A DNA stretch of 64,000 bases, taken from positions 1-64,000 of the forward strand of contig CACKYN010000003.1 of the NCBI GenBank assembly GCA_902604355.1, written 5' to 3'. A program made the translations under genes and the position numbers. Each line of letters begins with the position of its first letter. Within the stretch, counting starts at the first letter, position 1. Of this stretch, positions 11,274 to 58,955 are shown one piece after another. The DNA is from an uncultured Pelagibacteraceae bacterium (GTDB taxonomy: Bacteria; Pseudomonadota; Alphaproteobacteria; Pelagibacterales; Pelagibacteraceae). Under the pieces are notes generated by a model, which did no database searches, had not been told where the DNA came from, and was given only the letters and a program-made list of their open reading frames with translations.

Positions 11274-11310
11274 GATTATTATTGAATCTATTGTAATTCC
11301 TTTTATATTA

Positions 11311-11572
11311 ATAGTGTTGGTTTTCCAACTACGACGATAAACGAATTTCGTAATAACCATTGCGGACGTGGGGGCAGTACCCACCACCTCCACCATACAA
11401 CTTATGGGGGTGAACTAGATTCGACGGATGACTAAAAGCTATTCTTTCGTTCGGGATTGTTCCACCGTGACGGGCTAATTTATAATTGCTAACGAAAGTT
11501 ACGCACTTGCTGCATAATTAACTTAGTTAATTAAGCACGGGGTCCGGGGCACCTGGCAACAGAACGCCCCTT
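11311..11572 (+). ncRNA. ssrA: Circularly permuted two-piece tmRNA: acceptor piece ending CCA at 11395, intervening segment about 11396-11405, coding piece from 11406; outer ends approximate
   Basis: GTGGG-loop-CCCAC T-arm then CACCTCC-A-CCA; GGGGGTG at 11406 pairs with CACCTCC to form the acceptor stem; conserved GGGGGTGAACTAGATTCGACGG; tag GCTAACGAAAGTTACGCACTTGCTGCATAA (11488-11517) = ANESYALAA*. Confidence 0.93.
11546..11572 (+). repeat. Copy 1 of 27-bp near-identical direct repeat (3' end of tmRNA coding piece)
   Basis: GGGGCACCTGGCAACAGAACGCCCCTT; 26/27 identical to 12294-12320. Confidence 0.95.
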
Positions 11573-11660
11573 CTCATTTGTTAATTTAGTTTGCAACATC
11601 AACGTTATTTAAAAAATACAACCAAAGGATTCGGCCTGTGTTCGGAATTATTTTTAAATT

Positions 11661-12176
11661 TTATCCAGGATATCTAATTGGACAAATAGAAACTTTAGAA
11701 ACAGTAATTGCTTTTTGACCAGTAGGAGTATTGTAAGTACAAACTTTTGTTAAGCCTGCCATATTGTGAGAGTGTGTCAGTGGACAAATAGAAACTCTTG
11801 GAACAGTTATTGCAGTTTGACCTGTAGGTCCATTGTAATAGCATACTTTTGTAAAACCTGTTGTGGTTGAATATCCAGTGCTAGTAGTTGGAGTTGGAGT
11901 ACTCAATGCTTGTCCTAAACCTATTAGACCTTCAGTTAATCTTTTATCTCTTAATGCCTTTGCCACATAAGGAGTACAATCAATACCTCTTCTTTGAATT
12001 GAGGCAGCTCTATCTGGTTTCCATATGTTATAGTCTGGTGTACTATAATAATCATAACATAATTGTGATGCCGGTTGAGAATCAAATTTCATAGCTGCTT
12101 CTTGTGCTGTCATGCAGCCATTAAGACCTAAAAAAATTATTAGTAAAAGTAATCTTCTCATGATTAATGTTACCAA
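11661..12176 (-). CDS. Putative lipoprotein with internally duplicated C-terminal motif, unknown function
   Basis: Signal peptide with lipobox-like LGLNGC; two copies of TKVCxYNxPTGQxAITVxxVSICP. Confidence 0.7.
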   Translation of the reverse strand: MVTLIMRRLLLLIIFLGLNGCMTAQEAAMKFDSQPASQLCYDYYSTPDYNIWKPDRAASIQRRGIDCTPYVAKALRDKRLTEGLIGLGQALSTPTPTTSTGYSTTTGFTKVCYYNGPTGQTAITVPRVSICPLTHSHNMAGLTKVCTYNTPTGQKAITVSKVSICPIRYPG

Positions 12177-12293
12177 CTTAAAAATTAAATTACGAGTCGA
12201 TTTTGACTCGGAATCTATTCGGAATTATTCGATTATTTGCATAATTTGATTGTTGCTAATTGTTGAAATATGAGGATTATTGAAACAAAGTTT

Positions 12294-12320
12294 GGGGCAA
12301 CTGGCAACAGAACGCCCCTT
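12294..12320 (+). repeat. Copy 2 of 27-bp tmRNA-derived direct repeat
   Basis: GGGGCAACTGGCAACAGAACGCCCCTT; one mismatch to 11546-11572. Confidence 0.95.
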
Positions 12321-12333
12321 TAAATTTTCATGT

Positions 12334-14286
12334 ATGAATAAATATTTCACTTTTATCGATGGGCTTAGAGGATTATCAGTAATATTAGTTTTTTTTTTTC
12401 ATATAAAGATACTTGAAAAAAATATTTTTCTTGAGGGAGGTTTTTTAGGTGTCGATATATTTTTTGTTATTTCTGGATTTGTAATTACCCATATACTATT
12501 AATTGATAACCTTAAACTTTTAGATAATAAAAAAGTTTTTTTTATTAGACGTTTTAGAAGATTAATTCCAGCATTAATAATAGTCTTATGCCTAGTATTA
12601 TTGATATCTATTTTTTATACCTCTTTAAATGGAATAGAAAGAATTAATCAATCGGCTTTTGCTAATTTTTTTCAACTACAAAATTTTTTATTTTTTTTAC
12701 AAACTGGTTATTTCGAATTAAATAGTAATGAGAGACCCCTAATACACACTTGGTCATTAGCAATAGAATGGCAATTTTATATTTTTTTTCCGCTTATTTT
12801 AAGAATATTAATTAATAATAGAAAACTATTTAGACTTATCATAATCATCTTGATTTTTATATCTGAATTTTTATCTAGAGTGGATAGTAACTTAAATTTC
12901 TATTTCACAATACCAAGAATATGGGAATTACTTTTAGGTTCATATATATATACGTTAGAAAATAAAGAGTTAGATTTTTTAAAAAAGATAAAAATAATTT
13001 TTTATCCATCTTTATTAGCTTCAGTCTTAATTTTGCTTAACGCAAATGAATTTGACAGACATCCCTCAATTATGACATTTATTTTTTTTATACCTCTAAT
13101 TTTTATTCTTAAAGAAGAAATTTTATATAAAGAGAAAAAGTTTATTTACTTATTTATTGATAATAGAATTTTGACTAAATTGGGTAAAATATCTTACTCT
13201 TTTTACTTGATTCATTATCCCACTCTGTATTTTTTGAGATTGCACTTTAATAATTTAAGTGTGGTTGAATCTGCTGCTTATTCATTATTAATAATTTTAT
13301 TTGTATCAGTTTTGTTTTATCATTTTGTTGAAACAAAATTTAGAAATACCAACATAATCTCAGATACTAAATTTTTTAAAATTTTTATCCCCTTAATTCT
13401 TGTACTAGTCATTCTAACATTTTCCAATCAACATTATTTAAACAAAAAAAAGTTGAATTTACCTGAAAAAATCATTTCTGAGTATGAAAAAGAATTTCCA
13501 ATACAAAATTGTTTTGATGTAAAAAAGTCTCACCTTAAAATAAATGACTGGTATTGCGAATTAAATCCTAAAGCAGGTAAAGCTAAATTTATTGTGTTAG
13601 GTGACAGTCAAGCTTTTTCAACACTTCCTGGTTTTTTAAATTTTTCAAAAAATAAAAACATCAACGGAATTGCTATAACTCAATCAGGATGTATTCCTTT
13701 TCTACAAATTCATCTGAAAAATAAAAAAAATAAATTTGATTGTTATTTACATAATAAAAAAGTTTATGAATTTATAAAAGATAATGGTATTAAAAATATA
13801 TTTTTAGTATCAAGATGGAATTACTATACAAGGTTTAGTAAATTAATTGATTTATATAATTCAAAACTATTTCCATCTGATGAAAATAAAAGACTGAAGA
13901 TATTTGAAGCTGGTTTTAAAAAAAGTATAAATTTCTTAAAAAATGATGAAACTAACATCTATGTATTACAACAAATTCCAACTGCTAGCAAATACCCCTA
14001 TGGTCAATATTTAGATCTTTATAGTAATGAATTTAATCTTAAAAAAAGATTTTTAAAATTAAGTACAAAAGAAATTGATTATATAGAAGAAACAAAAGAA
14101 ATTAATGAGATTTTTAATAAAGATAAAAATTATGTTAACATTTTAAATACATCTAATGTTTTTTGCGATAACAATAGATGTAATATAGGTACTATTGACA
14201 GTATATATTATAGTGACGAACACCATTTGACATATAAGGGTGGAGAAAAAATATATGATGTTATTTCACATTTATCTTTTGATTAG
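12334..14286 (+). CDS. OafA/YrhL-type acyltransferase with C-terminal SGNH-like domain (surface glycan O-acylation)
   Basis: IDGLRGLSVILVFFFHI, HTWSLAIEWQFYIFFP, C-terminal VLGDSQAF and DEHHLT; ATG at 12334 preferred over the upstream start inside the repeat. Confidence 0.88.
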   Translation: MNKYFTFIDGLRGLSVILVFFFHIKILEKNIFLEGGFLGVDIFFVISGFVITHILLIDNLKLLDNKKVFFIRRFRRLIPALIIVLCLVLLISIFYTSLNGIERINQSAFANFFQLQNFLFFLQTGYFELNSNERPLIHTWSLAIEWQFYIFFPLILRILINNRKLFRLIIIILIFISEFLSRVDSNLNFYFTIPRIWELLLGSYIYTLENKELDFLKKIKIIFYPSLLASVLILLNANEFDRHPSIMTFIFFIPLIFILKEEILYKEKKFIYLFIDNRILTKLGKISYSFYLIHYPTLYFLRLHFNNLSVVESAAYSLLIILFVSVLFYHFVETKFRNTNIISDTKFFKIFIPLILVLVILTFSNQHYLNKKKLNLPEKIISEYEKEFPIQNCFDVKKSHLKINDWYCELNPKAGKAKFIVLGDSQAFSTLPGFLNFSKNKNINGIAITQSGCIPFLQIHLKNKKNKFDCYLHNKKVYEFIKDNGIKNIFLVSRWNYYTRFSKLIDLYNSKLFPSDENKRLKIFEAGFKKSINFLKNDETNIYVLQQIPTASKYPYGQYLDLYSNEFNLKKRFLKLSTKEIDYIEETKEINEIFNKDKNYVNILNTSNVFCDNNRCNIGTIDSIYYSDEHHLTYKGGEKIYDVISHLSFD

Positions 14287-14395
14287 TTTATTCAGCGTTC
14301 AGACATCCAATTAAAATTAAAATTTTAAAAATTAGTGAAAAAATTTTGATGTGTCATCATCTGTAATAAATCTATATCCCTTCATAAAATTCTCT

Positions 14396-17056
14396 CTATT
14401 TATCTTTTAATTCGGCTTGTGCAGCAGCCAATCTTGCTACAGGAACTCTGTACGGAGAACAAGAAACGTAATTTAATCCTGCTTTCGCACAAAAAGAAAT
14501 ACTTTTAGGATCGCCTCCGTGCTCTCCACATATCCCTAATTTGATTTTTTTATTTTGGCTCTTACCTTTTGCAACAGCAATCTCAACTAAATCTGAAACC
14601 CCTTCGTCAATTGATACGAAAGGATCAATAGAAAATATTTTATTTTCTAAGTAATCATTTAAAAATTTTCCACTATCATCTCTACTTATTCCAAATGTAG
14701 TTTGAGTTAAATCATTTGTTCCAAAACTAAAGAATTCTGCATGTTTTGCTATTTCTTTTGCCTTTATAGCTGCTCTTGGAAGCTCAATCATTGTACCAAC
14801 CATAAATTCTATTTTTAATTTATTTTCTTTTTGAACCAAACTTGCTATTCTTTTAACTAAGTCTTTCATTATTTTAATTTCAGCCTCTGTAGAAACTAGA
14901 GGTATCATTATTTCAGGAAAAGCAGACTTAATTTTATTTTTTTTAAGCTCACATAATGCTTCAAAAATTGCTCTACATTGCATCTCATATATTTCAGGAA
15001 ATGATATAGCTAATCTACAACCTCTGTGACCTAGCATTGGGTTTTGTTCATGAAGTTCCTCAATCCTTATTTCAATCTCTTTTACTGACAGATTAACAAT
15101 TTCTGCTAATTCGCTAATTTCTTTATTTGTTCTTGGCAAAAATTCATGTAGAGGAGGATCTAACAATCTTACTGTAACTGGTAAGCCACTCATAATCTTA
15201 AAAATTGCAGTAAAGTCTTTTTTTTGATGTGGTAAGAGTTTATCTAAAGCTTTTGCTCTGTCCTCTTTAGTTTTAGAAAGAATCATTTCTCTAACAGATA
15301 AAATTCTCTCTTCATCAAAAAACATGTGTTCAGTTCTACAAAGTCCAATGCCTTCAGCACCAAAATCTTTTGCAGTTTTAGTATCCTTTGGGGTTTCTGA
15401 ATTTGTTCTTATATTTAATTTTCTATAACTATCAGCCCACGACATTAATTTTGAAAAATCACCCGATATTTCTGGCTTTACGGTTGCAACACTACCTTCG
15501 ATTATTCTTCCTGTAGAGCCATCTATTGTTATTATCTCTCCCTCTTTAATTTCCATAGATGAAGTTTTAAATGACTTATTTTCATAATTTATATCAATTT
15601 CACTCGACCCTGAAACACAAGGCCTTCCCATTCCTCTTGCTACAACCGCTGCATGGCTTGTCATTCCACCTCTTGCGGTTAAGATTCCTTTGGCTGCATG
15701 CATTCCTTGTATATCTTCGGGAGAAGTTTCTACTCTAACTAAAATTGTGTCCTGCATCATGGATGTTAGCCTTTCTGCTTCTTCAGATGTGAATACAACT
15801 TTACCACTCGCAGCACCTGGTGATGCAGGCAAGCCATTTGCAATTACATTTATTGTGCTTTTTTCATCTAAGGTTGGATGGAGAAGTGTATCAAGTGAGT
15901 GTGGATCAATTCTTAACACAGCCTCTTTTTTTGAAATTAATTTTTCTTTAACCATATCAACTGCGATTTTAACTGCAGATTTTGCAGTTCTTTTTCCAGA
16001 ACGTGTTTGAAGCATCCACAGCTTTTTATTTTCAACTGTAAACTCCACATCCTGCATATCTTTGTAATGTTTTTCTAATTTTTTTAAGATCTTATAAAGT
16101 TGTATATAAACTTTAGGCATAGACTCTTCCATTGATGGAGCTTTAACATTAGCATTTTGTCTAGCTTTTTTAGTTATATATTGAGGAGTTCTTGTTCCAG
16201 CCACAACATCCTCTCCTTGTGCATTAATTAAATATTCTCCATAAATTTCGTTTTCACCGTCTGATGGATTTCTTGTAAAAACAACACCAGTCGCACAATC
16301 GTCTCCCATGTTTCCAAAAACCATTGATTGAACATTAACTGCTGTACCCCACTCTGCAGGTATATGATTTAATTTTCTATAGACTTTTGCCCTCTTACTG
16401 TCCCATGACAAAAATACTGCGCTGATTGCTCCCAACAATTGTTCATGAACATCTTGTGGAAAATCTCTATTTGCTTTATCTTTAACTGTTCTTTTAAAAT
16501 CTTCAATTAGACCATCCCAGTCATTTTCATCTAAGTCAGTGTCCAACAAAACACCCTTTGTAAGTTTATAATTCTCAATTAATTCCTCAAAATGATACCC
16601 TTCAACACCCATTACTACATTGCCATACATTTGAATAAATCTTCTATAACTATCTTTGGCAAATCGACCATTAGAGGTTTTTGATGCTAGGGCTTTAACA
16701 GTTTTATCGTTTAATCCTAAATTTAAAATTGTATCCATCATACCAGGCATAGAAACTCTCGCTCCAGATCTTACTGAAAGTAATAATGGATTTTTTAAAT
16801 CACCAAATTTTTTTGAAACTTCTTTTTCAACAGCCTTTAATTCTTTTTTAATTGATATAATTATATTTTTATTAAGTTTTTTTTTATCTTTATAAAATAA
16901 ATCACACACTTTTGTAGAAATAGTAAATCCAGGTGGAACTGGTAATCCCATTCGACCCATTTCTGAAAGATTAGCACCTTTTCCACCTAAAAAATTTTTG
17001 GGGGTTTTAATTTTTTTGCTGTCTTTAGATTTAAAATTTAAAATTAGTTTTTTCAT
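14396..17056 (-). CDS. ppdK: Pyruvate, phosphate dikinase
   Basis: GGKGANLSEM, ILTARGGMTSHAAVVARGMGRPCV. Confidence 0.97.
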   Translation of the reverse strand: MKKLILNFKSKDSKKIKTPKNFLGGKGANLSEMGRMGLPVPPGFTISTKVCDLFYKDKKKLNKNIIISIKKELKAVEKEVSKKFGDLKNPLLLSVRSGARVSMPGMMDTILNLGLNDKTVKALASKTSNGRFAKDSYRRFIQMYGNVVMGVEGYHFEELIENYKLTKGVLLDTDLDENDWDGLIEDFKRTVKDKANRDFPQDVHEQLLGAISAVFLSWDSKRAKVYRKLNHIPAEWGTAVNVQSMVFGNMGDDCATGVVFTRNPSDGENEIYGEYLINAQGEDVVAGTRTPQYITKKARQNANVKAPSMEESMPKVYIQLYKILKKLEKHYKDMQDVEFTVENKKLWMLQTRSGKRTAKSAVKIAVDMVKEKLISKKEAVLRIDPHSLDTLLHPTLDEKSTINVIANGLPASPGAASGKVVFTSEEAERLTSMMQDTILVRVETSPEDIQGMHAAKGILTARGGMTSHAAVVARGMGRPCVSGSSEIDINYENKSFKTSSMEIKEGEIITIDGSTGRIIEGSVATVKPEISGDFSKLMSWADSYRKLNIRTNSETPKDTKTAKDFGAEGIGLCRTEHMFFDEERILSVREMILSKTKEDRAKALDKLLPHQKKDFTAIFKIMSGLPVTVRLLDPPLHEFLPRTNKEISELAEIVNLSVKEIEIRIEELHEQNPMLGHRGCRLAISFPEIYEMQCRAIFEALCELKKNKIKSAFPEIMIPLVSTEAEIKIMKDLVKRIASLVQKENKLKIEFMVGTMIELPRAAIKAKEIAKHAEFFSFGTNDLTQTTFGISRDDSGKFLNDYLENKIFSIDPFVSIDEGVSDLVEIAVAKGKSQNKKIKLGICGEHGGDPKSISFCAKAGLNYVSCSPYRVPVARLAAAQAELKDK

Positions 17057-58839: not shown

Positions 58840-58950
58840 TTATAGTAAGAATATTGCCATTAAAACTAAAACACAAATAACTGCGACTGTTCCCCACAAC
58901 ACAAACTTTGTAAAATTATTCCATGTATTCTTATGGTTTTCATTATCCAT
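58840..58950 (-). CDS. Probable aa3-type cytochrome c oxidase subunit IV (36 aa; absent from ORF track)
   Basis: Hand translation MDNENHKNTWNNFTKFVLWGTVAVICVLVLMAIFLL*; single TM; located upstream of pntA. Confidence 0.65.
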   Translation of the reverse strand: MDNENHKNTWNNFTKFVLWGTVAVICVLVLMAIFLL

Positions 58951-58955
58951 AAAAA

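Follow-up and report, generated by a model that had tools for sequence, protein, structure and literature searches.

The window, by which we mean the whole stretch of 64,000 nucleotides analyzed from an uncultured Pelagibacteraceae bacterium, contains a permuted tmRNA gene, ssrA, whose 3' end is present twice. The two copies delimit a unit of 748 bp, measured core to core, and the locus comprises the following features:

11278-11574, plus strand: permuted (two-piece) tmRNA gene ssrA (Rfam RF01849 alpha_tmRNA, 220 bits; tmRNA according to ARAGORN)
11546-11570, plus strand: core copy 1 (attL), 25 bp, GGGGCACCTGGCAACAGAACGCCCC, within the tmRNA; relatives have an identical core at ssrA
11571-11660, no strand: left end of the cassette as read from the sequence, with a TTCGG pair at 11630-11634 and 11641-11645 (11-bp spacing) that resembles arm sites
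11661-12161, minus strand: cargo gene for a 166-aa lipoprotein-like protein without Pfam match; the same cassette in locus L284 encodes a homologue
12193-12225, no strand: putative right arm, TCGGAAT at 12208 and 12219 (11-bp spacing), with an inverted copy before the pair
12283-12293, plus strand: conserved right-end motif AAACAAAGTTT, immediately 5' of the distal core; a class common to about 70 units (about 112 copies in the set)
12294-12318, plus strand: core copy 2 (attR), one mismatch, from the repeat search
12321-14404, plus strand: second insertion flush with the distal core, SGNH/AT3 O-acyltransferase (gene at 12334-14286); absent in L284, right end approximate
14396-17056, minus strand: native right flank, ppdK, where homology to L112 and L284 picks up again

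The duplicated 27-mer GGGGCACCTGGCAACAGAACGCCCCTT is located at 11546-11572 and again at 12294-12320, where 26 of 27 positions are identical and C is replaced by A. With up to three mismatches allowed, exactly these two matches are present in the 64 kb, compared to none in 100 shuffles and a chance expectation of zero, and the 974-kb assembly holds no copies besides them. Therefore, the duplication of the tmRNA 3' end that an earlier note had described from this sequence is real. The Rfam alignment places copy 1 at the 3' end of the coding piece of the tmRNA; the stretch CACCTGGCAACAGAA agrees with the Rfam consensus, and CACCUGGCAACAGAA is the consensus of alphaproteobacterial tmRNA in the same alignment. 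The 25-bp core represents the 3' hairpin of this coding piece and folds as a hairpin. The same note had stated that the second copy lacks tmRNA context and that the insert carries a lipoprotein gene but no integrase. Both were borne out, as no tmRNA sequence was found around copy 2, no integrase in the window insert, and the lipoprotein ORF (12161-11661, minus strand) is the sole long ORF of the insert. The lipoprotein is rare, with one weak and one partial match among 300 genomes of the genus, L284 being derived from a separate collection. No exact GC-rich 7-mer pair at 11-bp spacing other than that of TCGGAAT is present in the 64-kb window.

The window turned out to be the third stage of a nested series. 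L112 has an empty ssrA with a single core copy that is directly followed by ppdK, L284 (SAG-MED22) has the lipoprotein cassette alone between two cores and then ppdK, and the window has the cassette plus the acyltransferase. Compared with L112, homology crosses the ssrA core, ends within about 10 bases and restarts at ppdK; compared with L284, the alignment is continuous over ssrA, the lipoprotein cassette and the distal core, and then jumps to ppdK. The site-specific integration at the tmRNA end that the earlier note had proposed is thus supported by both loci. The interval alignment finds the insert absent, with one repeat copy, in L112, and hence the second copy is not conserved in all relatives. 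The 3' end of ssrA is the primary attachment site. Since L284 goes from just past the core to ppdK, the acyltransferase, whose ATG at 12334 is 13 bases past the 27-mer, represents an additional insertion within the window and not, as its position next to the distal copy might suggest, native flank. No right-hand core of this insertion was recognized, and the acyltransferase may itself be recurrent cargo. Together with its flanks, the window cassette aligns to L284 without interruption at 89%, and therefore the window copy may have been immobile for a long time.

The core is not restricted to this locus. The exact 21-mer core was found in 93 of 200 relatives, all of which belong to the genus of the window. 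It is often present repeatedly in a genome and is also found outside ssrA. When a 15-mer was searched with at most one mismatch, 51 of 121 genomes of the genus had between two and six copies, whereas the reversed-pattern control gave zero. The exact 15-mer is missing from 50 genomes of the neighbouring family, so the tmRNA end differs there, a result that bears on the tmRNA end sequence and not on cassettes. The pattern of right end plus core yielded 97 stretches in a collection of genome contigs, and the 80 that were retrieved are all titled Pelagibacteraceae, Pelagibacterales or (Candidatus) Pelagibacter. The set contains 283 core copies, with 96 in ssrA, 112 after a right-end motif of the (A)CAAAGTTC type and 75 others; these tallies are copies in the set and not independent events, and some genomes are present in two collections. 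Among the 75 others, 61 lie at most 120 bp past an ORF on the same strand, which is rnhA in 22 and pnp in seven cases. Copies outside ssrA often closely follow a gene, at rnhA for instance 2 nt past the stop codon, and no core on the opposite strand was found in 167 loci. The threshold of up to six mismatches for a core was chosen by us, many of the genomes are incomplete single-cell assemblies, and core conservation is partly ascertainment because the loci were picked by core-containing patterns.

Counted from core to core, 109 distinct units were obtained (at least 104 non-redundant), which range from 121 bp to 6.3 kb with a median of 1059 bp; 48 are shorter than 1 kb. In Pelagibacteraceae they are found, singly or as small arrays, downstream of ssrA, rnhA, pnp and further gene ends. 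In units with the right-end motif, 118 ORFs are opposite to the core strand and 11 on it. The motif is missing in about one third of the units, and at least one of these, with a gene of family fam45, moved nonetheless. Empty and filled sites can be compared directly: in L044, the ssrA core and a core with three mismatches enclose a 1.6-kb insert that the empty L116 lacks, and the right flank is 96% identical across 10.6 kb, beginning at the core. L105 (empty) and L110 (filled) form a further pair, and at rnhA there is a locus without core (L165), one with a single core (L182) and two with two cores plus cargo (L104 and L100). Moreover, the fam102 cassette of 685 bp, which L072 has at pnp, L109 at rnhA and L074 within an ssrA array, is 98.8-99.6% identical in the three genomes, its homology being bounded at each side by a core or a degenerate core, and the fam45 cassette is 97% identical between ssrA in L068 and an array with other flanking genes in L070. 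By comparison of these genome sequences, the cassettes have evidently moved between loci, and insertion in the empty/filled pairs was evidently flush with the core and in a single orientation. The units carry a displaced fragment of the target gene at the far end like the tRNA/tmRNA-site islands of the Islander type, but not the island-encoded integrase. They share with CIMEs the attL/attR flanks without recombination or transfer genes, as judged from the integrase searches and from the Pfam matches listed for the cargo, which for the larger proteins cover 25 of 51 families.

Repeats with the appearance of arm sites are found near both ends of the units. In 68 units with the right-end motif, a GC-rich 7-mer is common to the left and right end in 55, compared to 13 expected and a maximum of 26 in 20,000 re-pairings. 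The re-pairing test treats related units as independent, yet we judge its conclusion unchanged by kinship because the excess is so large. Repeats of a 6-mer with a spacing of exactly 11 bp are present in 38 left and 52 right ends of these units and in none (0 of 68) of the mid-unit windows, and upstream of the arrays the background is 0.2 GC-rich 7-mer pairs at 11 bp per 10 kb. The pairs lie 45-60 bp past the core on the left and 56-71 bp before the core on the right. The repeat is the same at both ends of one unit and different between units, examples being GTACGGGAT, TCCGCACT, GGCGTC, TTGGCACA and GGTCGGC; in 300 genomes of the genus, GTACGGGAT arms occur solely beside cores. A core between arm repeats, with one motif on both sides, is the attP layout of tyrosine integrases, and most but not all units have it. 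In several loci of the genus with long tyrosine integrases (L183, L186, L188, L192, L193), 11-bp pairs also occur twice, mostly flanking the integrase. The repeat pairs are thus probably arm-binding sites of tyrosine integrases. In L188, L192 and L193 the pairs are about 8-9 kb apart around the integrase, and the sites are tRNA-Val or unidentified. The proteins of fam62 (106-111 aa, no Pfam match) recur in units of L053, L060, L067, L092 and L098, and these units have a left arm with three 11-bp repeats (such as ACACGAAGTT and ACATTGAAGTT).

Among the 56 larger cargo proteins, trypsin-like peptidases (six), MrcB_N (five) and GIY-YIG domains (four) recur in the Pfam matches listed, which cover 25 of 51 families. 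NucS, YhcG-type PDDEXK and HNH nucleases, parts of type I and II restriction-modification (RM) systems and an SRA domain were found as well. PADLOC detected RM and candidate defence families, although its loose matches, such as those of trypsin-like proteins to RT-protease models, are not to be counted as defence systems. PHROG matches of the larger proteins are nucleases, methyltransferases, protease-like proteins and unknowns, and the smaller proteins are mostly without match, with some adhesin-like, cupredoxin and GNAT domains. The cargo comprises putative defence genes and genes for putatively secreted proteins. A common signal peptide with unrelated mature parts was dropped as a feature, being found in only four of 1711 pairs. 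The fam45 proteins, a secreted-looking family of 68-80 aa, lie near cores at several loci (L053, L065, L067, L068, L075, L081, L121), and an SGNH-fused AT3 acyltransferase relative of that in the window also follows the last core in L048.

No recombinase could be assigned to the units. In 126 genomes of the genus, no PF00589 match was near a core when contigs were compared by eye; only in two complete genomes do both lie on one contig, more than 200 kb apart. The PF00589 matches are mostly one Xer-like protein of about 325 aa, with a few longer integrases, and at the threshold used the sampled genomes mostly have this single Xer-like recombinase instead of a XerC/XerD pair. A home-made integrase HMM, which recovers four of six held-out integrases, found none in the 167 cassette loci. 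In viral collections, the exact core is present in eight contigs only, all with phage tmRNA genes, the 80 matches of the right-end motif are unrelated, and the left end and the GTACGGGAT arms gave zero matches. The phage-like contigs from IMG/VR (L003-L010), one of which is 242 kb long, carry complete permuted tmRNA genes ending in GGGGCACCTGGCAACAGAACGCCCC followed by AC. The TGGCACA arms matched 42 stretches, three of them with an integrase close by, and were rejected as a clue to a helper because the base composition was unlike that of SAR11. The CCGCACT and ACTCGTC arms gave nothing convincing as helper, and two attP-like composites produced only chance matches to phages. In none of the searched sets was there a recombinase-bearing relative sharing these arms or the core.

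We consider it most likely, with a probability of about 0.75, that the window unit is a member of a family of small, recombinase-less, att-flanked cassettes of this SAR11 genus, which are moved in trans by tyrosine integrases. A circular unit with the order right arm, core, left arm would recombine with the ssrA core or with any resident core. Insertion at ssrA would rebuild the tmRNA end and displace the old one, which would become the distal core, and later cassettes would enter existing cores and form small arrays. Arms near both ends are the layout expected for attP if the unit circularised. Since the units have no recombinase of their own, an outside enzyme must move them, and this is probably a tyrosine integrase acting in trans, which would come from a transient phage or another element, bind the arms and recombine the cores. 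Because the arms agree within and differ between units, they suggest several helpers with a common core and distinct arm recognition. Against this explanation stand the complete cores after rnhA and pnp, which would not be expected to result from simple recombination at a secondary site of unrelated sequence.

The earlier note had regarded the insert as a decayed island or minimal remnant. Entry of one integrative island into ssrA, followed by decay to 748 bp, would agree with the core duplication, the missing integrase and the 89% alignment of cassette and flanks to L284. However, in the family of more than 100 units (104 non-redundant, median about 1.06 kb) small size and lack of integrase are the rule, the same core occurs at other loci, and arm-like pairs are retained at both ends. 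Integrase-less units of the same size moved recently and are near-identical at different loci, by which a decayed island is largely refuted and now appears unlikely. We rate as comparably unlikely an integron-like mechanism, in which an IntI-like enzyme or the Xer of the host would recombine folded single-stranded cores. It would fit the hairpin core, the one Xer-like recombinase of most genomes and the arrays of small units that each consist of a gene and a site, whereas 118 of 129 ORFs in units with the right-end motif face away from the core strand, the core has in our judgement no evident dif likeness, and double-ended arm pairs are, to our knowledge, no feature of attC.

Less probable still is a role of the core as a conserved transcription terminator of which copies reached gene ends, the insertions being incidental. 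A hairpin core that is often followed by T residues and has many non-ssrA copies just 3' of a gene looks like a terminator, but left and right arms agree within a unit, cassette homology ends flush at cores and cassettes change locus. Furthermore, conservation extends from the stem to the loop, and mismatches are denser in the stem: the 17 copies that form the least biased subset have 14 in the 10 outer and six in the 15 inner positions, the profile of all copies being biased by the search patterns. Terminator function could be an additional role, and only as the sole explanation is it refuted by the core-bordered cassettes that change locus. Transposition with terminal core repeats is equally improbable; it would account for the full cores at both ends at rnhA, a locus that is coreless in some relatives, but not for the fixed orientation and the reuse of the same few sites, and no transposase family is among the cargo matches listed (25 of 51 families in the scan of larger proteins).

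Integron cassettes are likewise small and mobile units of genes, organized in arrays and equipped with a site that forms a hairpin, and CALIN are such arrays without integrase. In contrast to these, the SAR11 units have arm pairs at both ends and a core derived from tmRNA, no IntI was found, and gene orientation is opposite in most units with the right-end motif. In an early SAR11 study, attC sites were sought in hypervariable regions and none were found (PMC2217521). The tandem ssrA islands of Dehalococcoides are bounded by direct repeats of the ssrA 3' end; an integration module is lacking in 15 of 31, which were proposed to be cis-mobilizable, while the 16 with a module have a Ccr-related recombinase near attL, and many reductive dehalogenases are carried (PMC3146451). 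In SAR11, the cassettes target the coding-piece end of a permuted tmRNA as well as other loci, the units are mostly 0.3-2 kb, none was found with a recombinase, and the arms vary between units. CIMEs lie between attL and attR, lack genes for integration and transfer, often form tandems at a single site and are described as decay products of ICEs or IMEs (PMC5704250). The SAR11 units have the same att-flanked, tandem build, but relatives with an integrase were not found and small size is the usual state. The Pseudomonas tmRNA islands I23, I44 and I55 have direct repeats, putative phage-defence cargo and no transfer genes of their own, but unlike the SAR11 units they are much larger and encode the tyrosine integrase IntY (PMC12595487). 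According to PMC10872708, tycheposons carry cargo in streamlined marine bacteria, are found at tRNA sites, have a tyrosine recombinase and measure 4-200 kb; the SAR11 units also bring cargo to RNA genes, but are mostly smaller, without recombinase and at tmRNA.

The cassette family appears, provisionally, to be unreported, as none was found in titles and abstracts on SAR11 ssrA or tmRNA integration, a search that covered few subscription papers. It is easily overlooked because no integrase flags the units. SAR11 are among the ocean's most abundant cells, and streamlined oligotrophs have been described as having few genetic defences (PMC12143481). Mobile units with restriction enzymes, nucleases and putative defence genes would account for part of the strain-level gene turnover in SAR11. 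The odds seem to us balanced on the wider idea of a distributed cassette system in SAR11, in which hundreds of tiny recombinase-less units would share a pool of defence and secreted-protein genes and the arms would serve as addresses for different trans-acting integrases. Arm repeats that are common within a unit and not between units make a testable prediction on such integrases. Apart from the ssrA locus, the window has an Rfam match to the pntA sRNA at 58893-58954 on the minus strand (84.5 bits).
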